In this document: in pieces, positions 1 through 27,287 of the stretch
Layout: each line of letters starts with the position of its first letter
How positions within the stretch are numbered: the first letter of the stretch is position 1
DNA from: a virus
IMG/VR virus record: IMGVR_UViG_3300032006_000067
Span: 1 to 27,947 of that record
Length of the DNA: 27,947 nucleotides
Direction: 5' to 3' (one strand)
Notes under the pieces: generated by a model
Seen by the model: the letters and a program-made list of their open reading frames with translations, nothing else
What the model was told of the DNA's origin: nothing
Database searches by the model: none
Program-made: the position numbers and the translations under genes

Positions 1-385
1 AGAGTCTCAAAAACTCTCCTATAGATAGTGGTCTATTAGATGGTCTATTAGGTAGCGGTACGTGTACGGGGGGCTCACGCACACCCTCTACGGGGGGCGT
101 TGACCCTGTCCATATGAACTCGTACTGATTTGAGTTATTAAAGCGTCGATGAATCTTGAGTATCCCACCACGTTCAGCTATACGATTAAGCTGCTTACTG
201 CAGTAACTTGGAGTCATACCACAACGCTTAGCTATAGTGTTTATACTGGGGAATGCTAGATTCGTACTGTTAGGATCTCTGAAAGATAGTATACCTATCA
301 GAGCCCTGATTTCTCCCTTACTGAGATCACCCATAGCCGGGAGCAAGCTATTGGGTAAGATGCAAAAGTTCTCTGCTTGTTTCAA
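1..385 (-). CDS. Winged-helix DNA-binding protein, probably replication-associated (partial, runs off left edge)
   Basis: This reading frame is open from a TTG at 385 to the window edge (128 codons) and has no stop. The in-frame TAA seven codons upstream leaves TTG as the only start before an ATG at codon 18. An AGAGG Shine-Dalgarno lies 7 nt before it. The TTG overlaps the TGA of the upstream gene as TTGA, which implies translational coupling. Residues about 45-90 contain FPSINTIAKRCGMTPSYC followed by LNRIAERGGILKI and a YEFIW strand. This is the layout of the HTH_36-type winged helix found in phage replication O-like and other initiator proteins. A Pro-rich linker (TPPVEGVREPPVHVPLP) follows, as is usual between the DNA-binding domain and a C-terminal helicase-loader region. 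The role in replication is inferred; it could instead be a regulator. Confidence 0.72.
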   Translation of the reverse strand, partial: MKQAENFCILPNSLLPAMGDLSKGEIRALIGILSFRDPNSTNLAFPSINTIAKRCGMTPSYCSKQLNRIAERGGILKIHRRFNNSNQYEFIWTGSTPPVEGVREPPVHVPLPNRPSNRPLSIGEFLRL

Positions 386-879
386 TGTATCCCTCTTACG
401 TTGTTATGTATATTCTGTGCCGTTGTTCTCACAACCATCCAAATATCTTTTGGTTTTGCTTCAGGTCCAAAATCTATACCTTGAGCAGCGAAGGCCTCCT
501 TTACTTGGCCCTGCATGTTTAGTAATTCTCGTAAACTATCTTTAGCAACATCTTCAGTATATCGATGCGCCACTAATGGCTTATTGTTTACAAGATACGC
601 AGCAGCATATATTTGGCTTCTATGCCACCAATACTCTATACCGGCCATGATCTCGCTGTCATCGTCTTCATTTTCAAAAACATCTGGATTCAATAACATA
701 GCGAAGTAAAGATCTGGAGAATCTTGTTTCTCATCTTTCTGCCACTGCATAGCCCACGCCATCTCGTCAGGAAACCAAAAGAATCCATCTATTACAGTAC
801 CAATATCGTTCTCTACCCGCTCTCCAGACTTAATAGCTTCGGCTATTTCCTCAACATCATTAATGTTATATTCCTTCAT
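382..879 (-). CDS. Hypothetical protein (165 aa) downstream of dUTPase
   Basis: I do not recognise this family. The protein is acidic at its N-terminus and rich in aromatic residues in the middle (WFPDEMAWAMQWQ, GIEYWWHRSQIYAAAYLV). Its C-terminal tail looks helical and resembles a small soluble phage protein. The start ATG overlaps the stop of the dUTPase gene as ATGA. Its own stop overlaps the TTG of the next gene, so it lies in the middle of a coupled leftward operon. The Shine-Dalgarno is weak, which fits dependence on coupling. Its position between dUTPase and a replication-like gene suggests an early or accessory role. No enzymatic motif is visible. Confidence 0.8.
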   Translation of the reverse strand: MKEYNINDVEEIAEAIKSGERVENDIGTVIDGFFWFPDEMAWAMQWQKDEKQDSPDLYFAMLLNPDVFENEDDDSEIMAGIEYWWHRSQIYAAAYLVNNKPLVAHRYTEDVAKDSLRELLNMQGQVKEAFAAQGIDFGPEAKPKDIWMVVRTTAQNIHNNVRGIH

Positions 880-1376
880 AACTCAGTAACTGGAACTGGT
901 TCTTCACCATAGTCCCAACCTCCAAAGTCGTCAGTGCTGCCAAAACCGCCATCCCCTCGCTGCGACTGAATATCAAATAAACGATGCTTTTCGACTTCGA
1001 TGATTTGTGGCAGTGCTACAGGTAGATACAAAAACTGTATCAGTTTGGTATTAGGCAAGATAAAGACAGTACGATGACTGACATTCATAACGTGCAGGTG
1101 TATCTCGCCTTCGTAACCTGAATCCACTACACAAGCACCAACTTGAAGCCCGTGCTTGGTTGCTACACCCGATTTATTAAACGCAACTAGAGCCATACCA
1201 ACAGCAATGTCAGCTTTGATACCGCTAGCTATCTTCTCTGAATGACCTGGCTCTATACCATCAGACCGGTAACCAGCTGGTACATAAAAGTCTATACCGG
1301 CATCGTACTGATGAGCTCGACTAGGTGATTTCACGTCCCTTATTTTACAGAATCTCAATGTTTGCGGTAAACTCAT
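876..1376 (-). CDS. dut: Trimeric dUTPase (dUTP diphosphatase)
   Basis: The enzyme hydrolyses dUTP to dUMP and pyrophosphate, which limits uracil in DNA and supplies dUMP. All five family motifs can be read: DAGIDFY (25-31, motif 1), NKSG (67-70, motif 2), VVDSGYEGEI (83-92, motif 3, with the uracil-pocket Tyr), NTKLIQFLYLPV (109-120, motif 4) and RGDGGFGSTD (140-149, the glycine-rich P-loop-like motif 5). Its 166 aa is slightly longer than a typical trimeric dUTPase because of an acidic tail after motif 5. The start overlaps the preceding stop as ATGA. It shares an operon with a thymidylate synthase-family enzyme, so the two probably work together in phage dNTP metabolism. Confidence 0.95.
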   Translation of the reverse strand: MSLPQTLRFCKIRDVKSPSRAHQYDAGIDFYVPAGYRSDGIEPGHSEKIASGIKADIAVGMALVAFNKSGVATKHGLQVGACVVDSGYEGEIHLHVMNVSHRTVFILPNTKLIQFLYLPVALPQIIEVEKHRLFDIQSQRGDGGFGSTDDFGGWDYGEEPVPVTEL

Positions 1377-1561
1377 TCTACATGATCCTTGATTGTTTCT
1401 ACTCGACCTGACCAGTCGATGGTTATTGACATGGGTTTAGGATCCGGCCATATAGCATGGATCTCGCCCTTCATATCTAACTGGTTAAGGAAGCTCACCA
1501 ACTGGAACGCTGACTCCGCTTCGCTCTTGTCGTCCGTCTTGATATCGATACGTATTGCCAT
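1373..1561 (-). CDS. Hypothetical small protein (62 aa) overlapping the DUF6378 gene
   Basis: This is an unrecognised small protein. It starts with a beta-strand-like segment (MAIRIDIKTDD), then a helix (ESAFQLVSFLNQL) and a second strand (GEIHAIW, SITIDW), so it may be a compact alpha/beta fold. The ATG at 1561 has a GGAGG 9 nt upstream. Its stop overlaps the dUTPase start as ATGA. Its first 77 nt lie inside the end of the upstream gene in another frame, an unusually long overlap for this operon. The good ribosome site and the end coupling support it as real. Confidence 0.65.
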   Translation of the reverse strand: MAIRIDIKTDDKSEAESAFQLVSFLNQLDMKGEIHAIWPDPKPMSITIDWSGRVETIKDHVE

Positions 1562-1904
1562 CCTCTGCTACCTCCCGTTTTTGCTGTTCTGTTGCATGAA
1601 CCTCTGGATCGTTGTAATGTTTCTGTAGTTCCAACTCTCGTTTTTCTTTGTACTCTGACCAACCTTCCATGTAACCACACACATCGACCATATTGTCTCG
1701 CTTGTGGTTCTGCTTCTCACGAGCAAACTTAAGACCTATCAGTATGGCATACGCCATGTCCATAGTTACTGCATTACCTGTTACTACCATAGCGAAGTTA
1801 CATGCATCCTGCATATTCTGATCGAACGATCCATAATCGTGACCATCGGCGTCTTTATAGACGATGTTGTGTGCATCCAACAGTATGCTCTTGTCTATGC
1901 TCAT
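1485..1904 (-). CDS. DUF6378 domain protein
   Basis: The 139-residue protein matches the DUF6378 pattern by eye. It has an N-terminal DAHNIVYKDADGHDYGSF segment, a central helix with VTMDMAYAILIGLKFARE, then NHKRDNMVDVCGYMEGW. The conserved K/R, H-x-RDN and VD-x-x-GY residues resemble the acidic/basic helices of all-alpha nucleotide pyrophosphohydrolases, but that link is only my inference. The chosen start is the ATG at 1904. It has AGGAGGGAG just upstream and overlaps the stop of the thymidylate synthase-like gene as ATGA; a longer frame exists but lacks such a site. Members of this family are common in phage nucleotide-metabolism clusters. The C-terminal 30 residues are polar and probably disordered. 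Confidence 0.75.
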   Translation of the reverse strand: MSIDKSILLDAHNIVYKDADGHDYGSFDQNMQDACNFAMVVTGNAVTMDMAYAILIGLKFAREKQNHKRDNMVDVCGYMEGWSEYKEKRELELQKHYNDPEVHATEQQKREVAEDGNTYRYQDGRQERSGVSVPVGELP

Positions 1905-2758
1905 AATCTCCCTCCTACGAAGTTCTCTTGTTCGAATACATCTACCATTTCCCACATTGTCTCAAGCTCTATATCTCTGGTGGGTAAGTGAAGCATGTCT
2001 TCCATTGCATGACGCCATGTAAACTCTTCGACTAACTCATACCTATCATAGACTTCGTTAGTATAACTATCAAATAGTAGATTCCAATGAGGCTCATAGC
2101 AATGCAATGATGTCGCGTTGTACGTGAACGAACCTAATTCAAGATCCCTCTCAAAGAACATTCCACAACACTCTCCATGACGCTTCAGTTCGTTGCGCAT
2201 CATCTGTAAGAACAACATACCTACAGCTATGTCATTGCAGAATCCAAATATGAAATCACTGGATCTCATATTCCAAATCAGATGCAGTTTATCATCTCGT
2301 ATAAAGAACTGAACAAACATCGTGCATGGTACATCCTTCATACCATAGTCTACGTCAGGCTGATTCAAGGCTATCACAGCTCGCCGTGATTCTGGTAATC
2401 TTAATAACTCATTAGCAACTCGATCCCAGCTGCGATAAAGACAAGCGCCATAATTACTATGTACGTTACCATTGACACTAGCAATATCTTGCCAGGTAGA
2501 GGCTGCTTTCCCAATATTTCTAACGTTTTGATCTTGTGATAGATACCACATAAATTCGAGTAAAGCGTAGCGAACATTGAATTTTCTCTTTGGATTATAT
2601 ATATTGATCTGACATACATCATCGATCGTTATACTTTGGTTTAATAACTCGATAGCTCTGCTATCTCCCTTAGACGACTTAGTTGCGATTATCTCACCAT
2701 CATATCGTAAGTAATGCCGTGTACCTTCATATGCTTCTTGTAAGGTGTGGTACCTCAT
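1901..2758 (-). CDS. Thymidylate synthase-family enzyme, predicted dCMP (hydroxy)methyltransferase-type
   Basis: This is a folate-dependent pyrimidine C5-methyl or hydroxymethyltransferase of the ThyA fold (285 aa). Visible landmarks are Glu68 in LLEFMWYLS, Trp89, Arg125-Arg126 in SRRAVIALNQ (phosphate binding), the catalytic Cys145 in VPCTMFVQF, the phosphate/base segment MRSSDFIFGFCNDIAVG (164-180), and His219/Tyr221 in LHCYEPH. Counting from the conserved R-S-x-D, residue Asp176 falls where E. coli ThyA has Asn177. In known enzymes Asn at that place selects dUMP and Asp selects dCMP, as in T4 dCMP hydroxymethylase. The product is therefore more likely 5-hydroxymethyl-dCMP or 5-methyl-dCMP than dTMP. 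The start is coupled as ATGA to the gene before it. Family membership is sure; substrate preference is inferred. Confidence 0.88.
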   Translation of the reverse strand: MRYHTLQEAYEGTRHYLRYDGEIIATKSSKGDSRAIELLNQSITIDDVCQINIYNPKRKFNVRYALLEFMWYLSQDQNVRNIGKAASTWQDIASVNGNVHSNYGACLYRSWDRVANELLRLPESRRAVIALNQPDVDYGMKDVPCTMFVQFFIRDDKLHLIWNMRSSDFIFGFCNDIAVGMLFLQMMRNELKRHGECCGMFFERDLELGSFTYNATSLHCYEPHWNLLFDSYTNEVYDRYELVEEFTWRHAMEDMLHLPTRDIELETMWEMVDVFEQENFVGGRL

Positions 2759-2919
2759 TTCTTCTCCCTGGTCATTGCCACATAATATTTGCCATCAATC
2801 TCTGCTATGAACTCGCCCTTCTCCTCGTTGTACGTACACTTGAATTCATTAGCGATACAACCTTCCATCACACGTTGCTCGAACATCTCTACAATACCAT
2901 CAAATGTATCACAATCCAT
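2755..2919 (-). CDS. Hypothetical small protein (54 aa)
   Basis: The protein is an unrecognised short acidic one with a helix (FDGIVEMFEQRVMEG) followed by two strands (EFKCTYNEEKG, EFIAEIDGKYYVAM). The ATG at 2919 is preferred because GAGG lies 7 nt upstream, just after the stop of the previous gene. An in-frame TTG at 2940 would overlap that gene and has no better site. The stop overlaps the thymidylate synthase-like start as ATGA, so it is translated in the same operon. It has no motif that gives a function. Confidence 0.68.
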   Translation of the reverse strand: MDCDTFDGIVEMFEQRVMEGCIANEFKCTYNEEKGEFIAEIDGKYYVAMTREKK

Positions 2920-2921
2920 GT

Positions 2922-3155
2922 CTAATCCTCGTATGGCCAACCATCTTCTTGACTCCTCGCTAGATCATCTTGGTACTGTATGATGATCGCATCTTTACGA
3001 TTATCCTCATCAAAGGATAGATCCTCAATAGCTTCCTCAAGATCTCGTTTAGAATCAGGTCTGTAAAAATCCTTTTTCTTGTCGCGAATAGTCTTGGGCT
3101 TATTGAACTGTTCTGAGTTCTTAGCTACTGGATTCCTCCTTATTGTTTTGCCCAT
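2922..3155 (-). CDS. Hypothetical charged protein (77 aa)
   Basis: The protein has a strongly basic N-terminal half (TIRRNPVAKNSEQFNKPKTI, RDKKKDFYRP) and a strongly acidic C-terminal half (DLEEAIEDLSFDEDNR). That composition suggests a disordered or nucleic-acid-associated adaptor. An AGGAG lies 7 nt before the ATG. The ATG overlaps the preceding stop as TGATG. Its first 35 nt also overlap the end of the 3121-3357 frame. The family is unknown; position gives only membership of the leftward operon. Confidence 0.72.
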   Translation of the reverse strand: MGKTIRRNPVAKNSEQFNKPKTIRDKKKDFYRPDSKRDLEEAIEDLSFDEDNRKDAIIIQYQDDLARSQEDGWPYED

Positions 3156-3357
3156 CAGTTTTCTCCTTGATCTTCGTCGCCGCGTATTGCTGCAACGTTT
3201 CTCCCCATTTCTCGTTGAACCACTCTTCCCACGTTATTTTGTGCTCTGGCGGTACTCTCTCGTACTTTCGCCTCCAACACCACCTCGCGGCATGCAGCTT
3301 GAGCGTTTCGTAGTCTTTTGCTACTCTTTCCGGTGTACGTACTCTCGATTGCACCAT
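3121..3357 (-). CDS. Hypothetical protein (78 aa) in an alternative frame inside 3155-3658
   Basis: This frame overlaps the neighbouring 167-residue frame by 203 nt. It is kept because its translation is protein-like, with a Trp/Arg-rich core (RWCWRRKYERVPPEHKITW, then EEWFNEKWGETLQQYA). It also has an ATG with GAGG 7 nt upstream, immediately after an in-frame TAG. The family is unknown. Either both frames are translated, or the two frames are pieces of one protein joined by a frameshift, with the C-terminal half of the other frame being a shadow. The sequence cannot decide between these. Confidence 0.5.
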   Translation of the reverse strand: MVQSRVRTPERVAKDYETLKLHAARWCWRRKYERVPPEHKITWEEWFNEKWGETLQQYAATKIKEKTDGQNNKEESSS

Positions 3358-3658
3358 CTAAATGCCTCAAGAAGTAAAAGCCAAGCGGATCCTCTATCAG
3401 AGGGAAGACCCTCAAGCCTAGCCAATGCTTCAGTTTGTTAGTCTCTTTACCAAACCCACAGCGCTCTGATAACTCTCGTACTGTGATAGTCTGGGGCGGC
3501 ATGTCTATGTACCAATTGGGTGAACGATCATGATGCGTGATCTTACCTGTATCGTAGAATAACTTAAAATCTGAACAGGCTCTAGATCCCTCAACACATA
3601 TCCAATAGTTATGACATGTATCACATGGTGATTCGGACATTGTCTCGTTGTTCTCCAT
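3155..3658 (-). CDS. Hypothetical protein with N-terminal cysteine cluster (167 aa)
   Basis: Residues 10-35 read PCDTCHNYWICVEGSRACSD. These four cysteines could bind zinc, and the cluster resembles short Cys-rich heads seen in phage accessory proteins. The middle (MPPQTITVRELSERCGFG) may be a helix-turn-helix-like segment. The last about 65 residues are Arg-rich and lie opposite a second good frame, so the true C-terminus is uncertain. The start ATG at 3658 has only a weak ribosome site. Met7 at 3640 is an alternative. It is the first gene after a 124-nt non-coding gap. Confidence 0.65.
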   Translation of the reverse strand: MENNETMSESPCDTCHNYWICVEGSRACSDFKLFYDTGKITHHDRSPNWYIDMPPQTITVRELSERCGFGKETNKLKHWLGLRVFPLIEDPLGFYFLRHLDGAIESTYTGKSSKRLRNAQAACREVVLEAKVRESTARAQNNVGRVVQREMGRNVAAIRGDEDQGEN

Positions 3659-3782
3659 TCTTTAGATGTAAAAAAGAGCAGTTTAACGCCATGCTCAGGG
3701 CGACAGAGACTTATCCTGTTAAGAGCTCTGATTTTAGGTCCGGAAATGCCAGGGGGTAGTCTCTGGTCTTAATCCTGACGAC
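3659..3782 (-). other. Short intergenic region with an inverted repeat
   Basis: No gene is visible in this gap. CAGAGACT at 3704-3711 is perfectly inverted as AGTCTCTG at 3758-3765, with 46 nt between the arms. The leftward gene 3155-3658 begins just beyond it, so the gap could hold a leader, processing site or weak promoter. There is no U-tract next to the arms and no tRNA-like T-arm. Confidence 0.4.
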
Positions 3783-4175
3783 CTATCTGCAATATACAGA
3801 CATACGATCAGCGAATTCAAGCGGTAGATCTTGATTGAATCTGTATGTCAAACCTCTCATTACCTTTGGTAAAGGCATTTCTTTCCAGCCTTCCCACAGA
3901 TATTTCTCGCGAAGCTTTTTGCTTTTCATTACAGTTTCAACAGCTTTGACACGTGAACCGCGTCCACGAAACCGAAGATTCTGTCCTTCGAACAGGTTTT
4001 TTAAGTGAACTGGTACATCTTTAGCTATAAGTCGTTGCGTCGCGTATTTTCGCATTGTACATTGCTCTCCGTCGTTGAATTTGTAAACGTTTAAGGTTAC
4101 TGCGTATCTTTCGTGAACGTGATGAATTGTATACGTCACGAGAAGATTCTTGGTCGAACCGCCATTCAGGTTCAT
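3783..4175 (-). CDS. Hypothetical basic protein (130 aa)
   Basis: The family is unrecognised. The N-terminal part looks beta-rich (NLLVTYTIHHVHERYAVTLN), followed by basic stretches (NLRFRGRGSRVKAVETVM, KSKKLREKYLW). Net positive charge and a possible OB- or RNA-binding-like character are only impressions. It starts 9 nt after the stop of the upstream gene 4185-4511, so the two are probably co-transcribed. The ribosome site is modest (GAG about 8 nt upstream). Confidence 0.75.
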   Translation of the reverse strand: MNLNGGSTKNLLVTYTIHHVHERYAVTLNVYKFNDGEQCTMRKYATQRLIAKDVPVHLKNLFEGQNLRFRGRGSRVKAVETVMKSKKLREKYLWEGWKEMPLPKVMRGLTYRFNQDLPLEFADRMSVYCR

Positions 4176-4184
4176 CTTTGTATC

Positions 4185-4511
4185 TCACTTCGTACCTCCG
4201 TAGTTAAAGATCGTTCGATTATTATCGATTGTCTTCTTGAGCTTATCAAGCGCTTCCATGATCGTCTCATCACGTCGCTGTAAAACTACTTGAGCTTCAG
4301 TTGGGTCTGGTTGAGTATCGTCAATGAATCCAGACTGCCAACCAACATGATACGCATCGTAAGCAATATCAATAAGATCTTCGATCATTTCTTCTTGATG
4401 GTCAGGATTATCACCAAGTTTCTCGACGATATCCTCAATATTAGCTGATATGCGAGAACGAACTCGCTTTGGGATATCACTGTGAGAGCGATTTGAATAT
4501 ATTTCGGTCAT
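4185..4511 (-). CDS. Hypothetical mainly helical protein (108 aa)
   Basis: The family is unrecognised. Predicted helices run through VRSRISANIEDIVEKLG, HQEEMIEDLIDIAYDAYHVG and a C-terminal amphipathic stretch (ETIMEALDKLKKTIDN), with an acidic overall charge. An AGGAGG site precedes the ATG and lies at the edge of a conserved 41-bp promoter-like element (4520-4560). This makes it the probable first gene of the long leftward operon that runs to the window edge. Confidence 0.78.
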   Translation of the reverse strand: MTEIYSNRSHSDIPKRVRSRISANIEDIVEKLGDNPDHQEEMIEDLIDIAYDAYHVGWQSGFIDDTQPDPTEAQVVLQRRDETIMEALDKLKKTIDNNRTIFNYGGTK

Positions 4512-4519
4512 ATAATTTC

Positions 4520-4560
4520 CTCCTATATAAGGAAATTTGAAGTGGTAAAAAAATTAAGTG
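4520..4560 (-). promoter_or_regulatory. Conserved leftward promoter-like element, copy 1
   Basis: Read leftward, this begins CACTTAA, runs through an A/T tract to ACCACTT, then AATTTCCTTATATAGGAG. It aligns without gaps to 5380-5420 and 6254-6294, and each copy lies upstream of a leftward gene. Its upstream end overlaps the CCA end of tRNA-Asp by 2 nt. Its downstream end merges with the ribosome site of 4185-4511. A phage-specific or strongly degenerate sigma promoter is inferred; no transcription start can be read directly. Confidence 0.5.
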
Positions 4561-4635
4561 GCGGAGTGGACGGGACTCGAACCCGCAACCACTGGCGTGA
4601 CAGGCCAGGATTCTAACCAATTGAACTACCACTCC
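4559..4635 (-). tRNA. tRNA-Asp (anticodon GTC), CCA encoded
   Basis: A complete 77-nt cloverleaf can be folded. The acceptor stem is GGAGTGG/CCACTCC. The D-arm carries GTTC and GAAT with the GG of the loop. The anticodon stem CTGGC/GCCAG holds the loop CTGTCAC. The variable loop is 5 nt, and the T-arm is GCGGG-TTCGAGT-CCCGT. The discriminator is G, and the terminal CCA is present in the DNA. Its 5' end overlaps the stop region of the small gene 4626-4781 by 10 nt. It probably supplements host decoding of Asp codons; use as an integration target cannot be excluded, but no integrase is in the window. Confidence 0.95.
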
Positions 4636-4781
4636 GGAGGATCATCGTCAAACCGTCCCATACTGACCTCGTTGAGACTATCATCGACATATGGATCTGG
4701 ATCATTTGCATCTGCGATACACCACCAACACATACCATCTTCTAGTATATCGAATGTACCGCATATTTGACAATTATTCAT
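4626..4781 (-). CDS. Small zinc-ribbon-like protein (51 aa)
   Basis: Two Cys pairs, NNCQICG and MCWWC (the latter at residues 17-21), are spaced as in a short zinc ribbon or knuckle. An acidic tail (DANDPDPYVDDSLNEVSMGR) follows. The frame continues upstream to 4886, but that part runs through a transcription terminator, so the ATG at 4781 is the likely start. Its ribosome site is weak (CGAG close to the ATG, GAGG further out). The stop codon lies inside the first 10 nt of tRNA-Asp, so processing of the tRNA would cut at the very end of this message. The function is unknown. Confidence 0.6.
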   Translation of the reverse strand: MNNCQICGTFDILEDGMCWWCIADANDPDPYVDDSLNEVSMGRFDDDPPEW

Positions 4782-4805
4782 TATCTCGTCTACCTCGTTT
4801 TCAAT

Positions 4806-4872
4806 GAAAAAAAAAGCACCAACATCTGTCTCATGCTTCACCAGTGGTGCATGTTCTTGAGATGCTGGTGCT
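4806..4872 (-). terminator. Large-hairpin intrinsic terminator (leftward)
   Basis: In the leftward RNA the arm at 4872-4860 (AGCACCAGCAUCU) pairs over 13 bp with the arm at 4827-4815 (AGAUGUUGGUGCU, one G-U). Nine U residues follow (4815-4807). The 32-nt loop has its own CATGC/GCATG stem. It lies downstream of the gene ending at 4936 and should end that unit. Confidence 0.75.
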
Positions 4873-4928
4873 AAAGCATCTGTCACGAGCCATAGCTGGT
4901 CGGGCCGTTCTTGAGATGCTGGTGCTAA
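4853..4928. repeat. 22-bp exact direct repeat (two copies)
   Basis: The 22 bases beginning gttcttgagatgctggtg occur at 4853-4874 and again at 4907-4928, an offset of 54 nt. The first copy supplies one arm of the terminator hairpin. The second could compete for the same partner arm, or it may mark a short duplication. Confidence 0.85.
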
Positions 4929-4935
4929 TTGTTAC

Positions 4936-5346
4936 TTACGCAGCTTGAGCTAAACTCTCGGCAAACTCATCAACACGTGCTTCGATTTTAGCAGCAAGAT
5001 TTGCTGGCCAGATCTTTAAATATCCTGGCATTTGCTCATAACGACATTCAGTATCTACACCATCAGCAGTATCACCAAATATAGCTTTTAATTTACTGTT
5101 ATGCAAAGACACAATAGCAAATTTACGCTCAGTAGGATGGAGCTTCGATGGTTTTTTAACTCGAGTAAAGACTTTGTTTGATCCCTCAGGATCAGACTCA
5201 ATCTCGATCGAATCTGCATGATACGTAACTTTGAAACTTGAACCGGGTTCAAATCCATCCAAACCATATCGCTGTTGCTCAAGCCACAAGCGTCTTTTGC
5301 CCTTTTGGGTATGGATTTTCATCGGCTTTAATTCGATTCCTGACAT
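4936..5346 (-). CDS. AbrB/SymE-like small protein, paralogue A (136 aa)
   Basis: The core contains KIHTQKGKRRLWLEQQRYGL, GFEPGSSFKV, a KVFTRVKKPSK segment, then AIVSLHNSKLKAIFGD and GYLKIWP. The pattern of two short beta-hairpin halves ending in a hydrophobic strand resembles SymE/AbrB swapped-hairpin domains. It also resembles, as I recall, the small N-terminal domain of some mobile-element C5-cytosine methyltransferases. That assignment is inferred. The core is clearly paralogous to 5874-6218. This copy has an extra helical tail (IEARVDEFAESLAQAA). The ATG at 5346 is chosen because GAGG lies 9 nt upstream and the start then matches the paralogue (MSG versus MSN). The gene stands alone, with its own promoter-like element and terminator. 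A DNA-binding or anti-host role is possible. Confidence 0.75.
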   Translation of the reverse strand: MSGIELKPMKIHTQKGKRRLWLEQQRYGLDGFEPGSSFKVTYHADSIEIESDPEGSNKVFTRVKKPSKLHPTERKFAIVSLHNSKLKAIFGDTADGVDTECRYEQMPGYLKIWPANLAAKIEARVDEFAESLAQAA

Positions 5347-5379
5347 AGGCATTGTCCTCAAGGTTGATTAAAAAATGTA

Positions 5380-5420
5380 TCTCCAATTAAGGAAAATTAA
5401 AGTGGTAATTTTTTTAAGTA
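5380..5420 (-). promoter_or_regulatory. Conserved leftward promoter-like element, copy 2
   Basis: This is a gapless counterpart of 4520-4560 (offset 860). It shares the taagg, agtggtaa and ttaagt blocks (plus-strand reading) with the same spacing. Its near end is about 34 nt upstream of the ATG at 5346. It should drive the AbrB-like gene independently, because a terminator at 5701-5726 separates it from the upstream unit. Confidence 0.5.
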
Positions 5421-5700
5421 ACAGTTAAATAACAATGGCGCAAGAATATCATGAAATGCTAATGTTCATCACACTTTGGTTAGTTTGAAGTTCTGTTTTA
5501 ATCAGAAGAAGCTTGCGCGCACGCAAAGATTCTCAGATTCTCTCCCCCCGCCAGAGTTTCTGGTTCTTCGGTTCAGAGTTTCTGGTTAGTTCGGGCTAAA
5601 CCGTGGGGTTTGAACTGAATAATATATGAATATAATGAAATTCTAATATTTGTTCTTGTCTCGCCGAGATGCCAGTTTTTGGTGTTATGATTTTCGGGCG
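5421..5700. other. Non-coding A/T-rich region with short repeats
   Basis: I see no gene on either strand between the promoter-like element and the terminator. It contains a short stem (TTGCG, loop, CGCAA) near 5514-5527, a tandem agattctc-like repeat near 5528-5541, and a 14-bp direct repeat at 5552-5587. An AAACC/GGTTT hairpin lies near 5598-5611. It could hold an origin, an operator cluster or a small RNA, but nothing proves any of these. Confidence 0.45.
5552..5587. repeat. 14-bp direct repeat pair
   Basis: cagagtttctggtt occurs at 5552-5565 and 5574-5587, spaced 22 bp apart, which is two helical turns. That spacing is compatible with a dimeric protein binding site. Confidence 0.7.
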
Positions 5701-5726
5701 AAAAAAAAGGGGACCCGAAGGTCCCC
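5701..5726 (-). terminator. UUCG-tetraloop intrinsic terminator (leftward)
   Basis: Leftward, the RNA reads GGGGACC, loop UUCG, GGUCCCC, then eight U residues. The 7-bp G/C stem, stable tetraloop and U-tract make a textbook Rho-independent terminator. It closes the unit 6218-5797. Confidence 0.93.
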
Positions 5727-5796
5727 AAAAGCTTTGCAGTTAATCTAGTACTTTGTCATGAAGATTTTAAGAGCTTTGAAAAAGTACTCCAGTAAG

Positions 5797-5877
5797 CTAT
5801 TTTGTTGCTTGAAATAATATGTAAGCGAAGACGAACAAAAGCGTCAGTGAAACAACCCAGAACTCTAGAAAACTCAC
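5797..5877 (-). CDS. 26-residue membrane peptide coupled to the AbrB-like gene
   Basis: A GTG at 5877 overlaps the stop of the upstream gene as GTGA. It opens a 26-codon frame that is one hydrophobic segment (FLEFWVVSLTLLFVFAYILF) ending QATK before a TAG. Single-helix peptides of this size occur as phage toxins, holin-like or exclusion peptides and small regulators. The coupling, the continuous hydrophobicity and the terminator about 70 nt downstream support translation. There is no independent ribosome site and no family to compare, so it may be chance. Confidence 0.42.
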   Translation of the reverse strand: MSFLEFWVVSLTLLFVFAYILFQATK

Positions 5878-6218
5878 GAAGCCACCGGCATAATTTTGAT
5901 ATAGCCTTCAGACATTTCGTAAGACACCGGAGTATCGACACCATTTTCGGTATCGCCAAAAAGCTCTTTGAGACGAGCATTGTGAATACCAACAATCGCG
6001 AAACGACGCTCAGTCGGAATTCGTTTTGACGGAGCTTTTACACGAGTGAAAACTGTGTTAGTTCCGTTTGGATCGGACAACAACTCAACAGAATCGGCGT
6101 TGTATCTCACCGTGAACTTCGAACCCGGGGCGAATCCCGGCAATCCATACTTCTGTTCTTCAAGCCACAATCGGCGCTTGTTCTTTTGAGTGTGAAGTTT
6201 CATTGGTGCATTACTCAT
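5874..6218 (-). CDS. AbrB/SymE-like small protein, paralogue B (114 aa)
   Basis: This is the second copy of the 4936-5346 family: KLHTQKNKRRLWLEEQKYGL, GFAPGSKFTVRYNADSVEL, TVFTRVKAPSKRIPTERRFA, AIVGIHNARLKELFGD, GYIKIMP. The alignment is collinear over the whole core, and only the C-terminal helix of the other copy is missing. AAGGA lies about 9 nt before the ATG. It is the first leftward gene at the divergent junction, behind its own promoter-like element, so it is probably expressed early or strongly. A role in binding DNA or countering a host system is inferred from fold impression and position only. Confidence 0.75.
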   Translation of the reverse strand: MSNAPMKLHTQKNKRRLWLEEQKYGLPGFAPGSKFTVRYNADSVELLSDPNGTNTVFTRVKAPSKRIPTERRFAIVGIHNARLKELFGDTENGVDTPVSYEMSEGYIKIMPVAS

Positions 6219-10307: not shown

Positions 10308-10958
10308 ATGGCAACTATAGCGAACATCAGCAAGCTGGTAGTTCCCGCTTATAATAAAGGTCCCAAGGATGTAGTAGATTACATCAACGCACAGGCTTGG
10401 GCGCCCACAAGCGCGGACGTTGGTTTGATTGAATATCCGGGAACTTTTGGCTCTTATGTAGGCAGCGTTGTAGGTATATTACCTTTAGATATCACGCCGT
10501 TTTTACAGGCGACTATTACTTCTACAGATTTGATTATTCCCGTTACGAATCATACACCGCCCAGCAAACCTTTGTCATCTTGGCCGGCTAGTGGTTATGC
10601 GCAAGTAGATAATGAGGTATTCCTTTATGAACTCATTAACCCAGGAGCAACTAGCGCTAGTGGTTATGACGAGTTTTTGATCGCCACGCCTGATAACCGA
10701 GGCGTTCTTGGTACTACAGCAGCCGGACATACAGCGGGTGCTGGAGCAGCATTTACAACGATTCTATTGGGTGCTACTCAAAAGATAGAATATAACAAGG
10801 ATCAAGGCGTTTTTAATATCTGGACGCAAACATCGCAGCAACAAGACTTAACAGGTTTTTATGGTAACAACGGCTGGTTATATATAAACACGACTTACTT
10901 GGTGCCTTGTCCTGAGGACGTAGTGACTTTCTTCGAAACCGAAGGTGGCGTCTCTTGA
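10308..10958 (+). CDS. Hypothetical virion-type protein (216 aa)
   Basis: The family is unrecognised. It is Thr/Gly/Pro-rich with strands (GILPLDITPFLQATITSTDL, IIPVTNHTPPSKPLSSWP) and a C-terminal aromatic domain (FYGNNGWLYINTTYLVPCP). It could be a capsid-associated or tail-accessory protein. The ribosome site is weak. Its TGA overlaps the TTG of the large terminase gene. Confidence 0.75.
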   Translation: MATIANISKLVVPAYNKGPKDVVDYINAQAWAPTSADVGLIEYPGTFGSYVGSVVGILPLDITPFLQATITSTDLIIPVTNHTPPSKPLSSWPASGYAQVDNEVFLYELINPGATSASGYDEFLIATPDNRGVLGTTAAGHTAGAGAAFTTILLGATQKIEYNKDQGVFNIWTQTSQQQDLTGFYGNNGWLYINTTYLVPCPEDVVTFFETEGGVS

Positions 10959-12382
10959 GTCTTTCTATAGCTCTGGCTAATGGATTACCAAGGGACGAAA
11001 TCCGTGCTTTATTACTATCAGAAATGCAACGACGCATGGAAGCGCGGAAGACTCGCTGGGTTGCACTCGACGGCCCACAAAAGAAGTTTGTTAATAGTGA
11101 GCATCCTCATATATTGTTTGGCGGAGCGCGAGGAGGTTCAAAAAGTGTTGGAATGCTTTTAGCATTTCGTAAGCATGCAGAGAAATATGGAAAGGAGGCG
11201 CAAGGCCTTCTGTTCCGCAGGTCATTTCCAGAAACGGGCGAGCTTATCAAGTTAGGTCAGTATGTCTTCGTGCAAGAAGGTTGGGAATGGAAAGTCGGGG
11301 AGCGAAAATGGGTTTCTCCCAGCGGATCCGTGCTACAGTTGAAACACCTAGACGAGGATTCCGACGCTATGAAGCTTCAGGGGTTTTCGGTAACTTTCCT
11401 AGGTTTTGACGAACTCGGGAACTGGCCATCACCAGAACCTATCGATATGCTACAGGCTACGATGCGTTCTGCTGCCGGCGTGCCGGTGCTATTCCGTGCT
11501 TCTGCCAACCCAGGTGGACCAGGGCATAACTGGGTCAAAGAAAGATATATCGACAGTGAAGGTGGGGAATCGATTTTTATTCCGTCTAAGATACAAGACA
11601 ATACTCCTCTGATGGAGAACGACCCGGGTTACGTTGAAAGAATCAAAAAGAGTGGACCAGAATGGCTCGTAAAAGCATGGTTAGATGGTGATTGGAACAT
11701 AGCGCCAGGTGCATTCTTCGAAGGCGTTTGGGATCCTAAGAAACACGTTGTAGAGCCGTTTGAAATACCATTACATTGGAAACGGTGGAAGGCTTACGAC
11801 CACGGTTATAAATCTCCAGCTGGATGTGTCTGGTTTGCACAGGATTATGATGGTATAATCTATATCTATAGAGAACTTTATTGGAGTTCGAGACCTAACA
11901 AGGGTAGTGAGACGCCCATAGAGGAGATTGCAAGGGAGATTAACGATGTTGAGAAAGACGAGAGAGATAGGAAGATCAGGTTTAAGAGTAACGTTGCCGA
12001 TTCTGCAATCTTCATGCGTGACGGCCGTAATAAAAGTGTTGCAGACGTATTTGCTGATTATGGTGTTATGTGGGAGTCTAGCGCGAAAGGTCCAGGATCT
12101 AGGGTGCAAGGTTTACAAGAGATTGTGGATCGCTTGGCAAACGAAAATCTTAAGGTTTTCAGTACTTGCAAACATTGGCTTCGTACGGTACCCCCGCTTC
12201 CTGCTGACCCCAAGAGGGTGGAAGATATTGATACGAGCGCGGAGGATCACCTCTTTGATGCCACGCGATATGGGTTGATGTTGAGAAGGGCTAGAACAGT
12301 AAAACCAAAGCCCAAACCCAAAAAGCCTAAAAGATTTACGATGGAATGGTTGGATAAAATAGACGAACTATATAGGGATTAA
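10955..12382 (+). CDS. terL: Large terminase subunit (ATPase and nuclease)
   Basis: This is the packaging motor that translocates and cuts phage DNA at the portal. The ATPase has Walker A GARGGSKS (57-64), Walker B FLGFDELG with the catalytic Glu (148-155), and the coupling motif RASANPGGPGHNW (181-193). The C-terminal RNase H-like nuclease shows Asp282 in YDHGYKSP, Asp349 in VADS and Asp431/Asp435 in DHLFDATRYG. Its 475 aa is normal for the family. The start is TTG, coupled as TTGA to the upstream gene; the next in-frame ATG would lose over 20 residues. The small-terminase-like gene is separated from it by six virion-type genes, which is unusual. Confidence 0.95.
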   Translation: MSLSIALANGLPRDEIRALLLSEMQRRMEARKTRWVALDGPQKKFVNSEHPHILFGGARGGSKSVGMLLAFRKHAEKYGKEAQGLLFRRSFPETGELIKLGQYVFVQEGWEWKVGERKWVSPSGSVLQLKHLDEDSDAMKLQGFSVTFLGFDELGNWPSPEPIDMLQATMRSAAGVPVLFRASANPGGPGHNWVKERYIDSEGGESIFIPSKIQDNTPLMENDPGYVERIKKSGPEWLVKAWLDGDWNIAPGAFFEGVWDPKKHVVEPFEIPLHWKRWKAYDHGYKSPAGCVWFAQDYDGIIYIYRELYWSSRPNKGSETPIEEIAREINDVEKDERDRKIRFKSNVADSAIFMRDGRNKSVADVFADYGVMWESSAKGPGSRVQGLQEIVDRLANENLKVFSTCKHWLRTVPPLPADPKRVEDIDTSAEDHLFDATRYGLMLRRARTVKPKPKPKKPKRFTMEWLDKIDELYRD

Positions 12383-12384
12383 CC

Positions 12385-14466
12385 ATGTCAGAATTAGATA
12401 TCATTAACGTACCAGAGTCTGGTTTGAATCCCGGAATTCCACCTGATTCAAAAGGTTTGATTCGCAAGTTTCAAAAAAATGTAGAACTTTCATACACAAA
12501 ATGGAAGTCGCAATATAAGCAGATAGCTTATGCTCGAAGATATGCTTTAGGTAGGTTAAACAGTAACTCTACTGTTATAACTAGTACGCAAGCTATACAG
12601 GAAGGCAACAGGCTAATCAAGGGTAACTTGATTCATGCTACGTTGCAAGGATTGCTACCACATATCTATGCGCAGAATCCTGAAATAAAGATTCGTTCAA
12701 AAGAGTTAGTAGAGCCAGAGGGTTACGATTATCGACCTGGTGACTTGTTCGCACAGACGTCGGAATTAGTCTTAAATCATTGCTTGGAAGAAGCAAATCT
12801 AAAAAGAATTGCTAAGCAAGTATTACGTTCTTGCATGACAAGTAAAGTAGGTATTGTAAAGGTAACATACCAAAGAGATTACTTTACAGATCCACTTGTT
12901 AGTCGCCAATTAAAAGATGCACAAGACAGTTTGGCTCGTATGCAAGACGATATAAAGCGTTTGACAGAGGAAGGAAGTTACGAAGGCGATAGAGACGAAT
13001 TAGTTGAAGAGATAACAAATATTATCGGAGGTCTTGAGAGTCAAGTAGAAGTAATGCAACGCGAAGGCTTGAACTTAGGTTTTGTGCGTCCTGAAGATTT
13101 TCGTATGGATACCGCGTTGGATTCGCTTCAAGACTATGAAGCGGCACAATGGATGGCTAATGTAACATGGATGACACCAAGCCAAGCAATGGATCGCTTT
13201 CAGTTAACAAAGGATCAGATTGGCGAGTATGTTATATACAAGCGTACAGCGCATGGTATACAAAACAGGTTAAGTAAAGATGACATGGTGGGTTATTCTT
13301 ATGACCAGAATGAAGATGTAAACCTGGCTTTAGCGGTGTGGGAGTATTGGGACAACACCACGCAAACTGTTTACACTTGGATAGAGGGTGGCAAAGCTTG
13401 GATAAAAGATCCATTTCATCCTAACAAGATGGGTGCTGATTTCTTTCCATTTTTTATTCTTGGTTTGAACTGGATTGATGGTGAAGAATGGCCAATTGCA
13501 GAAACAGAATTATTGATGGCATTGCAGGACGAGTACAATACCATTAGGACACAAATGGCAAAGCATAGGGAATTGTCTGCGCCATTCTTTGTAGCAGACG
13601 CGTCTCGAGTTAACTATGAAGATATTGAAGTTTTCAGCAACGCGCAGATTGGCGAGATAGCCTTAATTAACGCCTCTGGCACGGGTGTAAATAACGTATT
13701 TCAACCCGCTACTCCCCCTCCTATGAACCCTATTGTTTACGATACAGCACCAATAAGATCTGACATGGAGTGGATCAGTGGCTTGGGAGACGCTCAGAGA
13801 GGCGGTATACAGCGTGCGAAAACTGCTACAGAAGCTAATATACAAAATGAGGGGCTTGCCACCCGTATACAGGAAAAGGTAGATCAAGTAGAGGGTTGGT
13901 TGCATAAAATAGCCCGTTATAGTTTAGAGATATTAGTGCAAGAAATGTCTGTAGAGATGGTATTTCAGATTGCTGGACCGAGAGCTTTTTGGCCTCAGTT
14001 AATGGAAGGCAAGCAAGATCTATATAGAAACATTAATGTAGTTATAAAGGCTGGTAGTACTGGTATGCCAGATGAGAATGCAGAGAGAATGCGTTGGGTA
14101 GAGGTTATGCCAATTATTATGCAAAATTTGCAAATGATTCAAGCTATGCGGCAAATGGGTATGCCAGATCAATTTAACCCTTATATACAATTACTAGAAG
14201 AAACGCTTAAAAGGTTCGATGAACGTATTGAGATAGGGAAATTTCTACCACCATTGCCAGAAAGCATCAATACTTACATGCAGCAAACTATACAGATGCA
14301 GCAAGCTATGGGTGATCCTGGTGGTGTAGCAAAAGCAATGTCGCCGTCTGTTACGCCTCAAGGTATGGAACCACCACAACAGTTAAATGAGGCGGTGAAC
14401 GCGCCGCAAAATCGCGTGCAACAAAGAACTCGTAATGAGTACAGGGAACCACAGGGAGGAATTTAA
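12385..14466 (+). CDS. Portal protein (P22-type)
   Basis: This forms the dodecameric ring at the packaging vertex. Its 693 aa agrees with the large podovirus portals. The N-terminal stretch has LIHATLQGLLPHIYAQNPEI, typical of P22-type portals. The middle shows LGFVRPEDFRMDTALDSLQD and WPIAETELLMALQDEYNTIR. The helical stem region holds TATEANIQNEGLATRIQEKV. The C-terminal end is Gln/Met-rich (YMQQTIQMQQAMGD), as in the barrel of such portals. It starts immediately after terL. Family assignment is by pattern, not by search. Confidence 0.88.
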   Translation: MSELDIINVPESGLNPGIPPDSKGLIRKFQKNVELSYTKWKSQYKQIAYARRYALGRLNSNSTVITSTQAIQEGNRLIKGNLIHATLQGLLPHIYAQNPEIKIRSKELVEPEGYDYRPGDLFAQTSELVLNHCLEEANLKRIAKQVLRSCMTSKVGIVKVTYQRDYFTDPLVSRQLKDAQDSLARMQDDIKRLTEEGSYEGDRDELVEEITNIIGGLESQVEVMQREGLNLGFVRPEDFRMDTALDSLQDYEAAQWMANVTWMTPSQAMDRFQLTKDQIGEYVIYKRTAHGIQNRLSKDDMVGYSYDQNEDVNLALAVWEYWDNTTQTVYTWIEGGKAWIKDPFHPNKMGADFFPFFILGLNWIDGEEWPIAETELLMALQDEYNTIRTQMAKHRELSAPFFVADASRVNYEDIEVFSNAQIGEIALINASGTGVNNVFQPATPPPMNPIVYDTAPIRSDMEWISGLGDAQRGGIQRAKTATEANIQNEGLATRIQEKVDQVEGWLHKIARYSLEILVQEMSVEMVFQIAGPRAFWPQLMEGKQDLYRNINVVIKAGSTGMPDENAERMRWVEVMPIIMQNLQMIQAMRQMGMPDQFNPYIQLLEETLKRFDERIEIGKFLPPLPESINTYMQQTIQMQQAMGDPGGVAKAMSPSVTPQGMEPPQQLNEAVNAPQNRVQQRTRNEYREPQGGI

Positions 14467-15591
14467 ATGGCAGAGCAAGCTCAGGTTATTTCAGATGCCG
14501 ATATGTATAATGAGACTTTAAACGTTATGCAGGCAGAGTTAGAGAATCTAAACGAAGAGAGGCCAGAGGAGGAGTTAGATGTCAAAGCAGAATCAGAACC
14601 CCAACCCGAATCAGAACCAATCAAAGAGTCAAAGGCCGATACTGACACTCCCACCTACCAAGAAGCTGAGGCAGCACAAGAAGACACGCGGAGTGGAGAT
14701 GATAGCAAAGAGGAACCAGCAGAAGCAATTTCAGCAAGCGAGGGAACAAAAGAGAGGACAGATCTAGAACCAGAAGATGCCGAGGTTTATGGTAATCTCA
14801 AACCTAAAGCACAAGAGCGTTTTGAGCATTGGATTAACAAAGCTAAGGAGTTAGAGGTTCAAACAACAGCGTTAGCATCTTCTAAAGAGCTGCACAAGTA
14901 TATTACCGATAGTGGCACTAACCCAGATCAATTACAGTGGGCTATAGAGACATTTAGGAATTTAAACTCTGGTAATTATGAGCAGGCACAACGCGCTTTA
15001 CAATCATTAGATCAATTTGCTGACCAGATCGGCGAAGCGTTAGGTGTAAATAAAACAGAAAACGAAGATAGTTCGTATAATGATTTTGAAGATTTAAAGG
15101 GTGCTGTAGAGAATCTTGAGATAAGTGAGGAGTGGGCTAACAAGTTAGCTACTCAACGTATTTCGGCACACTCTCAAGACCAAGCTAAGGAGACGTTTAA
15201 TCAGGCGCAAGCTCAACAAATGCAAGCTCAACAGCAACTGGAAAACGGTAAAGACCAAGCTTACAAGGATATAGATGATTGGGAACAATCTATTGCAGCT
15301 CAGGATGCTGATTATAATAGTACGAAAAAAGAAATCATGATGGAGATCGGTAGGGAATTAGCATCTTCTAATATTCCACCGGAAAATTGGCTACCAAATC
15401 TTCAACAGCAGTATAATGTACTAACTCGCGGTATGTCTGCCGCTTCCGCGGGTAATTCAAAGGCTAGTAAAAGTTCTGGGCCCCTAGCACCCGGTAGAAC
15501 AAGCGGCGGATCAGGCAATCCATTAGAACTAGGGCAAGCAGAAGTTACCCCGGAGTTTCTTCAAGCACATCTAGATCGAATGAGAAGCTAA
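14467..15591 (+). CDS. Acidic scaffold-like protein (374 aa)
   Basis: It lies between portal and major capsid, where scaffolding proteins are found. The N-terminal 120 residues are extremely acidic and disordered (LNEERPEEELDVKAESEPQP). The centre is a Gln-rich coiled-coil-like helix (QAKETFNQAQAQQMQAQQQL). A short basic Ser/Gly segment and an amphipathic tail (LQAHLDRMRS) end it, as in coat-binding scaffold C-termini. It starts directly after the portal stop with GGAGGA upstream. Release or cleavage during maturation is expected from known scaffolds, not shown here. Confidence 0.82.
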   Translation: MAEQAQVISDADMYNETLNVMQAELENLNEERPEEELDVKAESEPQPESEPIKESKADTDTPTYQEAEAAQEDTRSGDDSKEEPAEAISASEGTKERTDLEPEDAEVYGNLKPKAQERFEHWINKAKELEVQTTALASSKELHKYITDSGTNPDQLQWAIETFRNLNSGNYEQAQRALQSLDQFADQIGEALGVNKTENEDSSYNDFEDLKGAVENLEISEEWANKLATQRISAHSQDQAKETFNQAQAQQMQAQQQLENGKDQAYKDIDDWEQSIAAQDADYNSTKKEIMMEIGRELASSNIPPENWLPNLQQQYNVLTRGMSAASAGNSKASKSSGPLAPGRTSGGSGNPLELGQAEVTPEFLQAHLDRMRS

Positions 15592-15693
15592 CAGGATTAG
15601 ATGTCAGCTGGATTCATCACCAGTAGCACGTATTGGCTTTCGTGTGGCCACACCTGTTCCATGGAACTACAACAACTTAAAAGGTAACGCACA
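15592..15693 (+). promoter_or_regulatory. Leader of the major capsid gene with a palindrome and a short open frame
   Basis: This is a 102-nt gap in an otherwise packed operon. GTGTGGCCACAC near 15644-15655 is a 12-bp perfect palindrome that could form a hairpin or bind a dimer. An ATG at 15601 opens a 28-codon frame ending at 15687 with only a weak upstream AGGA. It may be a leader or translation-control element for the most abundant virion protein. Confidence 0.35.
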
Positions 15694-16899
15694 ATGGCAA
15701 TGAATTATGCAATTAACGCTGCTGATGTCGTTCAATTAGGTTTCGTAGCTCTTGAGAATTATCTGAAGAACAAACCTATCGATCAGGTGGCTGTTCAGCA
15801 TCCCTTGCTAAAAGCTCTACAAGCTAAGAAAAAGCCGTGGGGTGGTGGTAATCAGTTTATCACTGAACAGATCCGCAAAGATTACGATAACTTTTTCCAA
15901 TGGTTTGGTGACGCGACTGGTGGTACTAAGAACGAGTCGACGGACGTTGGTTATAACACTCGTGATACGGTAGTGCAGGCGAAATATCCTTGGAACGCAG
16001 CACACGATGGTTTTCAGTTCTCTGAAGATTTCTTATTGGGCAACGGCATTCTAATTAGTGACTCACAGAATCCCACTAACTCAAGCGGAGCCAGTATGGT
16101 TCAGCTTACCAATATTTTCAACGAGGCGATGGATGTTCTACGCCTTGGTTTTGAAGAAATTCTTGACCAATCGTTGCATCTGGATGGTACGCATAACCTA
16201 GGTGGTGGAACGTCGGCGGCTTCTAAAGCTATCAATGGTTTAGACTATTTGGTAACTTTTGATCCACGAACTGGTACACCTGGCGAAATCGACCGATCAA
16301 CTGAGACATATTGGCGTAACAACTGGGACACCGGCGGTGGTCTAAATACCCACGTGTCAACTACCCCAGCTGGTCACGGCCACGCTTCTCTATTGGCTGC
16401 GATGCACACTATGTGGCGCGCATGCCAGAAGAATGGCGGCAGTCCTAATTTGATCCTAGCGGGTACGGATTTCATTAAGAGTTATGAACTAGCGGCAGCG
16501 CTAGGCACATCAGGTCAATTATCGCGATATGCGGTACAGCCTGGTACTATGGACTCTCCATGGAATCTTGATCCTTCTATCGAGATCAAAGATGGCGGTA
16601 CGTTTACGGGCTTGTACTTTCAGGGTGTTCCCATTATTTGGGATCCAGTGTTTGATACTTTAGGTGCTACTGCGGCGCAAAACGTTAGTAATGGCACTAC
16701 GGTGGCATGGTCTAAGCGTTGTTACATGCTTAACACCAACCACATCAAACTTCGCCCAATTGAGGGTAACGATATGATCGCACGGAAGCCTCCGCGTGAG
16801 CATACAAGCTACAACTACTACTGGGGCATGACCTGGCGTGGTGGTCTCACGATGAATCGTGGAAACTGTCATGGCTGCATTATGGCTACTGGTGCGTAG
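15694..16899 (+). CDS. Major capsid protein (HK97-fold type, 401 aa)
   Basis: The size, the order after portal and scaffold, and the sequence style support the major capsid. The N-terminal arm (NYLKNKPIDQVAVQHPLLKA) leads to KKPWGGGNQFITEQIRKDY, the E-loop region with WNAAHDGFQFSEDFLLGN, a P-domain helix region (NEAMDVLRLGFEEILDQSLH) and an A-domain beta core (LYFQGVPIIWDPVFDT; INPUT ending CYMLNTNHIKLRPIEGNDM). Cys residues occur near the C-terminus (RGNCHGCIMATGA). A terminator hairpin directly downstream fits high expression. HK97 fold is the default expectation for tailed phages, not shown directly. Confidence 0.88.
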   Translation: MAMNYAINAADVVQLGFVALENYLKNKPIDQVAVQHPLLKALQAKKKPWGGGNQFITEQIRKDYDNFFQWFGDATGGTKNESTDVGYNTRDTVVQAKYPWNAAHDGFQFSEDFLLGNGILISDSQNPTNSSGASMVQLTNIFNEAMDVLRLGFEEILDQSLHLDGTHNLGGGTSAASKAINGLDYLVTFDPRTGTPGEIDRSTETYWRNNWDTGGGLNTHVSTTPAGHGHASLLAAMHTMWRACQKNGGSPNLILAGTDFIKSYELAAALGTSGQLSRYAVQPGTMDSPWNLDPSIEIKDGGTFTGLYFQGVPIIWDPVFDTLGATAAQNVSNGTTVAWSKRCYMLNTNHIKLRPIEGNDMIARKPPREHTSYNYYWGMTWRGGLTMNRGNCHGCIMATGA

Positions 16900-16912
16900 T
16901 AAGGTATGGATT

Positions 16913-16943
16913 GTGGGGGCTTCGGCCCCCGCGATTCTTTTTT
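16913..16943 (+). terminator. UUCG-tetraloop terminator or attenuator after the major capsid gene
   Basis: GTGGGGGC, loop TTCG, GCCCCCGC (one G-U pair), spacer GATTC, then six Ts. The 5-nt gap between stem and T-tract may make it leaky, which would cut expression of downstream genes relative to the capsid protein. Confidence 0.85.
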
Positions 16944-16961
16944 ATCAAGGGAGATAAGATT

Positions 16962-17312
16962 ATGCAATTTCCGTTATTGGAAGGTTTCGCACCTAATGGT
17001 TCTGGTGGAAATTCAACAAGACAAGTTTTTATGGGGCATGAGTTGCCCATATATATGTTTAAATTTTCTGGTAGAATAACAGGTATCTCTACCATAAAAG
17101 AAGAAACACGAGAAGTAGAAAGTGTTGAGCAAGAAATAGAAAGAATGATAGATTTCTTCGGTCGACCATTACTTGAAGCTTCTTATGGCGAGAATTTTAA
17201 AGACGGCATAAAAGAAGCTATACACAGTATCATGGAAAAGGAGAAGGAAAAGAATGGCAGCGAGAACACTGCTAAGTCTAAGAACGGAGTTAGCTCAAAG
17301 ACTGGGGTTTAG
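16962..17312 (+). CDS. Hypothetical protein with charged tail (116 aa)
   Basis: The family is unrecognised. An open frame from 16911 runs through the terminator, so the ATG at 16962 with AAGGGAG upstream is taken as start. The N-terminus is Gly/Pro-rich (FPLLEGFAPNGSGGNS). A helical part with many Glu and Lys residues follows (EESVEQEIERMIDFFG-like pattern), then a long Lys-rich tail. The last 59 nt overlap the adaptor gene. A minor head or neck protein is possible. Confidence 0.7.
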   Translation: MQFPLLEGFAPNGSGGNSTRQVFMGHELPIYMFKFSGRITGISTIKEETREVESVEQEIERMIDFFGRPLLEASYGENFKDGIKEAIHSIMEKEKEKNGSENTAKSKNGVSSKTGV

Positions 17313-18060: not shown

Positions 18061-18071
18061 CAGGAATACTA

Positions 18072-19625: not shown

Positions 19626-19626
19626 T

Positions 19627-20531: not shown

Positions 20532-20540
20532 GAGTTAAAC

Positions 20541-22277: not shown

Positions 22278-22278
22278 T

Positions 22279-25584: not shown

Positions 25585-25585
25585 A

Positions 25586-27262: not shown

Positions 27263-27287
27263 AATGGAGTTAACCGGGGAAAGATAA

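Follow-up and report, generated by a model that had tools for sequence, protein, structure and literature searches.

A divergent thymidylate synthase-superfamily gene of an uncultivated bacterial virus, predicted to encode a T4 gp42-type dCMP 5-hydroxymethylase

Introduction

Phages commonly begin disguising the cytosine of their DNA by making 5-hydroxymethyl-dCMP. A gene on the minus strand of a viral record (1901-2758, 285 aa) raises the question of whether its product, a member of the thymidylate synthase (TS) superfamily, takes part in such a pathway: which nucleotide would it bind, and what would it make of it? The record is linear and was analysed over its complete length of 27,947 bases (hereafter the window); it probably represents a genome fragment. 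A preliminary description of the locus had pointed to an Asp at the position that discriminates between dUMP and dCMP, and had proposed 5-hydroxymethyl- or 5-methyl-dCMP as the product and modified cytosine in the DNA of this phage.

Results

The region carries many stops on the plus strand, and the open reading frame sits on the minus strand, tightly packed between its neighbours. Its start codon (ATG, 2758-2756) overlaps the stop of the preceding gene, a small one lying directly upstream (2755-2940, minus strand), while its stop codon (TGA, 1903-1901) overlaps the ATG of the following DUF6378 gene (1485-1904, minus strand; ATGA); a ribosome-binding site of the 'agggag' type precedes it. By Pfam (Thymidylat_synt, PF00303, E = 6e-18) as well as by PHROGs, its product belongs to the TS superfamily. 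The gene recurs with the same start position in six related IMG/VR viral contigs at 72-84% identity, and its dN/dS of 0.12-0.19 in these relatives is a clear sign of purifying selection. A profile re-scan of IMG/VR returned no relatives beyond the same six, and a peptide-pattern scan of 84,980 GTDB species genomes found no relative of the enzyme. When 54 TS-family proteins are placed in a tree, the window group forms a separate clade (support 97/99), with long branches that make its exact sister group unsafe; for this reason, our classification of the enzyme rests on residues and not on the tree.

The residue that had drawn attention to the locus is Asp176 (codon 2231-2233, minus strand). Alignments by phmmer, MAFFT and BLASTP all pair it with Asp179 of T4 gp42 and Asn177 of E. 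coli ThyA. Starting from the conserved Arg, the stretch reads MRSSDFIFGFCND in the window protein (R165-D176), MRSNDVVFGFRND in T4 (R168-D179) and QRSCDVFLGLPFN in ThyA (R166-N177). Because this stretch aligns without a gap with both proteins, Asp176 can be taken to occupy the base-selecting position, as first proposed. The possibility raised at the same time, that the preceding Asn175 might be the residue in question, is excluded by its pairing with T4 Asn178, both proteins reading N-D here. None of the six nearest relatives has lost Asp176, although its codon varies (GAC in two of them, GAT in four), and peptide-pattern scans found it invariant in 41 homologues, a mostly T4-like set that reveals retention among hydroxymethylase-like proteins rather than independence. 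These synonymous changes, together with the invariance, argue that Asp176 is not there by chance. As far as can be judged from the sequence, a preference for dCMP over dUMP is well supported. In phage DNA physically enriched for modified cytosine, TS positions 177 (Asp versus Asn) and 147 discriminate best, and Asp is present at 177 in most of the physically selected contigs (PMC8670742). At position 147 the window protein has Thr (Thr146), as does T4.

Overall similarity points in the same direction. In a PDB sequence search the top matches were T4 dCMP hydroxymethylases (80-86 bits), any TS reaching at most 44 bits. By BLASTP the window protein scores 100 bits against T4 gp42 (identity 31-32%), 66 against ThyA, 44 against the 5-hydroxy-dCMP synthase of RB69 and 37 against the dUMP hydroxymethylase of SPO1. 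It falls far below all cut-offs of the NCBIfam TS models (56.7 bits versus 327; 41 versus 108). The AlphaFold2 model, built from the alignment of 41 homologues, has a confident core (mean pLDDT 75.7, pTM 0.79) and is poor at residues 234-247 and 275-285; the C-terminal ~55 residues, which are extra relative to T4 gp42, are modelled with low confidence. The best Foldseek match is T4 dCMP hydroxymethylase (1b49, E = 1.6e-17), closely followed by the Streptomyces CMP hydroxymethylase MilA and by TSs. VIA-align places MilA at the top (Z 26.4, 255 aligned residues, rmsd 2.4) and TSs at Z ~22, with T4 gp42 absent among the 50 matches listed, so that gp42 does not stand out by its overall fold. The modelled fold confirms the superfamily, and the type of reaction is read from the residues.

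Which reaction follows the selection of cytosine appears to be decided elsewhere in the active site. Mutagenesis and the ternary structure of the T4 enzyme identified Asp145, Ser94 and Tyr96 as required for the reaction, with activity gone or nearly gone in the mutants D145N, Y96F, S94N and D179N; an Asp three residues before the catalytic Cys combined with Ser-x-Tyr was proposed as the hydroxymethylation signature, TSs having Leu at the former position (PMC6400193). The window protein carries both halves, Asp142-Val-Pro-Cys145 and Ser101-Asn102-Tyr103. Asp142 (codon 2333-2335) corresponds to T4 Asp145, which activates water in T4; Cys145 (2324-2326), the nucleophile, to T4 Cys148 and E. coli Cys146; and Ser101-Tyr103 (2450-2458) to T4 Ser94-x-Tyr96. 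Glu68 (2555-2557, all four on the minus strand) corresponds to T4 Glu60 and E. coli Glu58, involved in methylene-THF activation. The phosphate-binding arginines 123/124 and 168 of T4 are matched by Arg125, Arg126 and Arg165, and T4 His216 and Tyr218 by His219 and Tyr221. All of the T4 catalytic positions (E60, S94, Y96, D145, C148, R168, D179, H216 and Y218) are conserved, and Ser101, Tyr103, Asp142 and Cys145 are, like Asp176, invariant across the 41 homologues. One difference from gp42 is Cys174, located where T4 has the folate-contacting Arg177.

A comparison of family members at the positions of T4 Ser94, Asp145 and Asp179 separates these enzymes further. E. coli ThyA and an Arthrobacter phage TS have Pro, Leu and Asn; the SPO1 enzyme has Ala, Asp and Asn; T4, Muldoon, an Enterococcus phage and the window group share Ser, Asp and Asp. 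Manatee Spring podovirus and Microbacterium phage BAjuniper combine Leu with Asp, the pattern that would be expected of dCMP methylases. The signature is absent from ThyA and from these two Asp177-bearing, Leu-type homologues. Four positions (Ser-x-Tyr; Asp, Glu or Leu before the Cys; RSxD; Asp or Asn) therefore serve as a key to TSs, dUMP hydroxymethylases, dCMP methylase-type enzymes, dCMP hydroxymethylases and 5-hydroxy-dCMP synthases, five groups for which databases frequently use the single label 'thymidylate synthase'.

The remainder of the genome was reconstructed in part from a relative, G002 (42.9 kb). Positions 1-6218 of the window match G002 at 36.0-42.4 kb and positions 10955-27838 match it at 0-15.4 kb; the window thus overlaps both ends of G002, and together they cover practically the whole genome, which we estimate at ~47 kb. 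Recognised genes encode a class II ribonucleoside-triphosphate reductase, a DnaB-like helicase, a replication initiator-like protein, SSB, an exonuclease, a RusA resolvase, a dUTPase, DUF6378, a terminase, an SU10-like portal and adaptor, a major head protein and tail fibres. The reductase (619 aa), encoded to the left of where the window begins, belongs to the G002 replication module (L010, 12571-14430, minus strand), and its closest NCBIfam model is TIGR02505, ribonucleoside-triphosphate reductase (304 bits, under the cut-off of 340). The window and its relatives showed no recognisable gene for a DNA polymerase, a DHFR or a further TS, and the lineage probably depends on the host polymerase.

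The preliminary description had suggested looking for a dCTPase, a dNMP kinase or a glucosyltransferase; the search of the contig and its syntenic relatives, with T4 as control, found none. A T4 gp1-family dNMP kinase is absent from all seven records (T4 control positive), and beta-glucosyltransferase is absent from the window and its relatives (detected in T4 and Enterococcus phage 140). Neither dCMP deaminase (T4 gene detected) nor MazG (control genome positive) was found in the same set. The all-alpha dCTPase/dUTPase family of T4 gp56 had no match in the lineage, the profile being weak even on T4 (E = 8.5e-6).

Two neighbours of the gene deserve mention. The trimeric dUTPase-type gene (876-1376, minus strand), ~525 bases downstream, is a possible source of dUMP and, more speculatively, of dCMP. 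Its product scores under the NCBIfam dUTPase cut-offs and has Lys in place of the motif-2 Arg (NKSG versus PRSG); it is a possible dCTPase candidate. The intervening DUF6378 protein (also L123-L202) is small and very widespread in phages, with more than 360 IMG/VR matches and the invariant motifs YG, KxxR and KxDNxxDxxxY; its AlphaFold model is all-helical, with a core pLDDT of at least 90. We considered whether it might be a MazG-like dCTPase, an idea that gained no clear support: Foldseek gave no significant match, and E. coli MazG reached only Z 3.4, within noise. The protein is also widespread in other viral contigs. The PHROG label 'phosphofructokinase' is likewise unsupported by fold or Pfam evidence. 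Elsewhere, the window encodes two nearby small paralogues (4936-5361 and 5874-6218, minus strand; 66% identical), conserved in relatives, and, in the early gene region, a tRNA-Asp (anticodon gtc; 4559-4635, minus strand). The structural block of G002 includes a gene for a 2567-aa protein that has no Pfam or PHROG match (L010, 3583-11286, plus strand).

Discussion

The identity of catalytic positions, the fold and the conservation lead us to predict, with considerable assurance, that this is a gene for a T4 gp42-type dCMP 5-hydroxymethylase; the activity, the compound formed and the make-up of the DNA are predictions from these data. Very probably the enzyme is a new, divergent representative of a known enzyme kind in an undescribed lineage of uncultivated bacterial viruses. 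By homology with T4, Cys145 would attack C6 of dCMP, while Asp176 would hold the cytosine and protonate N3, allowing dCMP but not dUMP to be used. Glu68 would open 5,10-methylene-THF, the one-carbon unit would pass to C5, and the departure of THF would leave an exocyclic methylene. To this a water activated by Asp142, with the aid of Ser101 and Tyr103, is expected to add, yielding 5-hydroxymethyl-dCMP and THF in place of a methyl group and DHF. Thus, of the two products proposed initially, the dCMP-derived character of both seems right, and the presence of Asp142 and Ser101-x-Tyr103 narrows the choice to the hydroxymethyl compound.

The alternative half of that proposal, a dCMP methylase of the kind known from phage XP12 and from L. 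casei TS with the N229D mutation, converting dCMP to 5-methyl-dCMP and DHF, appears improbable. Asp at 177 by itself suffices for dCMP methylation in TS mutants, according to papers cited in PMC8670742. However, Asp142 and Ser101 are of the hydroxymethylase type, no DHFR was recognised in the window lineage, and the methylase-like proteins of Manatee Spring podovirus and BAjuniper combine Asp177 with Leu three before the Cys; this comparison uses homologues with the expected residues rather than XP12 itself. An ordinary TS, fed with dUMP by the nearby dUTPase, is less probable still. The protein does belong to PF00303, and the dUTPase gene is compatible with a dUMP-using enzyme, which counts against our preferred reading. 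Yet Asp176 replaces Asn, Asp142 replaces Leu (Asn177 and Leu143 in E. coli) and Ser101 replaces Pro/Val, the scores lie far under the TS cut-offs, and an Enterococcus homologue likewise adjoins a dUTPase, together with a beta-glucosyltransferase.

Two further activities known in the superfamily have to be weighed against the gp42-type reading. RB69-like phages (Mosigvirus) possess a flavin-using 5-hydroxy-dCMP synthase (PMC13390438). The shared superfamily, the cytosine-selecting Asp and the occurrence of 9iqu/9iqc among the structural matches speak for an enzyme of this kind, which has different chemistry. We nevertheless give it very little credence: in RB69 ORF048c, Ser94 is replaced by Thr, Asp145 by Glu and RSxD by RSxN, and the folate-contacting Gly is missing, whereas the window protein shows Ser, Asp, Asp and Gly at these positions and is, as its BLASTP scores indicate, much less similar to the RB69 enzyme than to gp42. 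A ribonucleotide (CMP) hydroxymethylase resembling MilA is the least probable of all. MilA, which acts in antibiotic biosynthesis, gave the highest structural Z, has a fold alike over almost the full length, including the C-terminal part, performs hydroxymethylation and has Asp at 177. Its ribose preference, however, stems from Ala176 and Lys133, in contrast to Ser and Arg in dCMP/dUMP enzymes (PMC5175136), and the corresponding residues of the window protein, Ser166 and Arg125, would suit deoxyribose over ribose. SPO1 gp29 shares the Asp three before the Cys but has Asn at the base-selecting position and Ala for Ser94.

The gp42-type reading leaves the question of what becomes of the product. 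T4 requires its own kinase and dCTPase for bringing hydroxymethylcytosine (hmC) into DNA. Since T4-type versions of these were not found in the window lineage, either host or unrecognised enzymes fill in, or only part of the cytosine is substituted, or the nucleotide has another use. We lean towards incorporation into DNA: kinases of the host, or unrecognised ones of the phage, might phosphorylate 5-hydroxymethyl-dCMP for use by the replication machinery, and the outcome would be hmC DNA, possibly unglucosylated, that escapes restriction. The initially suggested modification of cytosine in virion DNA is plausible, though its T4-type supporting genes were not recovered in the contig and relatives. 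A complete scheme, in which the reductase makes dCTP, a dUTPase-fold or DUF6378 neighbour converts it to dCMP, the gp42-like enzyme adds the hydroxymethyl group, and the product is phosphorylated and polymerised by enzymes that are unrecognised or come from the host, would let this ~47-kb phage replace cytosine with plain 5-hydroxymethylcytosine by a minimal pathway without T4-type kinase, dCTPase or glucosyltransferase; we consider this scheme conceivable but doubtful. A small phage with neither a recognisable polymerase nor T4-type auxiliary genes is mildly unusual, and since the other pathway genes of T4 could not be recognised in it, the lineage would, if the prediction is true, be a test case for the minimal machinery of cytosine substitution. 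Should the enzyme have the predicted activity, modified cytosine is probably present in this uncultivated lineage, with effects on restriction, cutting by Cas nucleases and sequencing.

Among known systems, all catalytic and substrate-selecting residues are shared with T4 gp42 (1b49, 6a9b). Isolate homologues aligning over all 285 residues (100% of the query) occur in the Enterococcus phages vB_EfaS_140 and nattely (85 kb), about twice the size of the window phage; they share the Ser-x-Tyr, Asp-3 and Asp177 signature and a nearby dUTPase. In vB_EfaS_140 the gene, whose product is 28% identical to the window protein, is followed by the dUTPase gene and by one for a beta-glucosyltransferase that shares 42% identity with that of T4.

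Several phage genes encountered in the comparison are of interest in their own right. On sequence grounds, the TS genes of BAjuniper (L027, 2797-3720; DHFR gene close by) and Manatee Spring podovirus (L024, 11851-12666; preceding an NTP-PPase-like gene) are candidate dCMP methylase genes, which would imply 5-methylcytosine DNA. In the 42-kb Microbacterium phage GardenB, a gene labelled thymidylate synthase (L025, 4004-4771) carries the full Ser-x-Tyr, Asp-3 and Asp177 signature and clusters with genes for a glycosyltransferase, an AAA-ATPase and a MazG-like protein, suggesting that this small actinobacteriophage likely has an hmC pathway.
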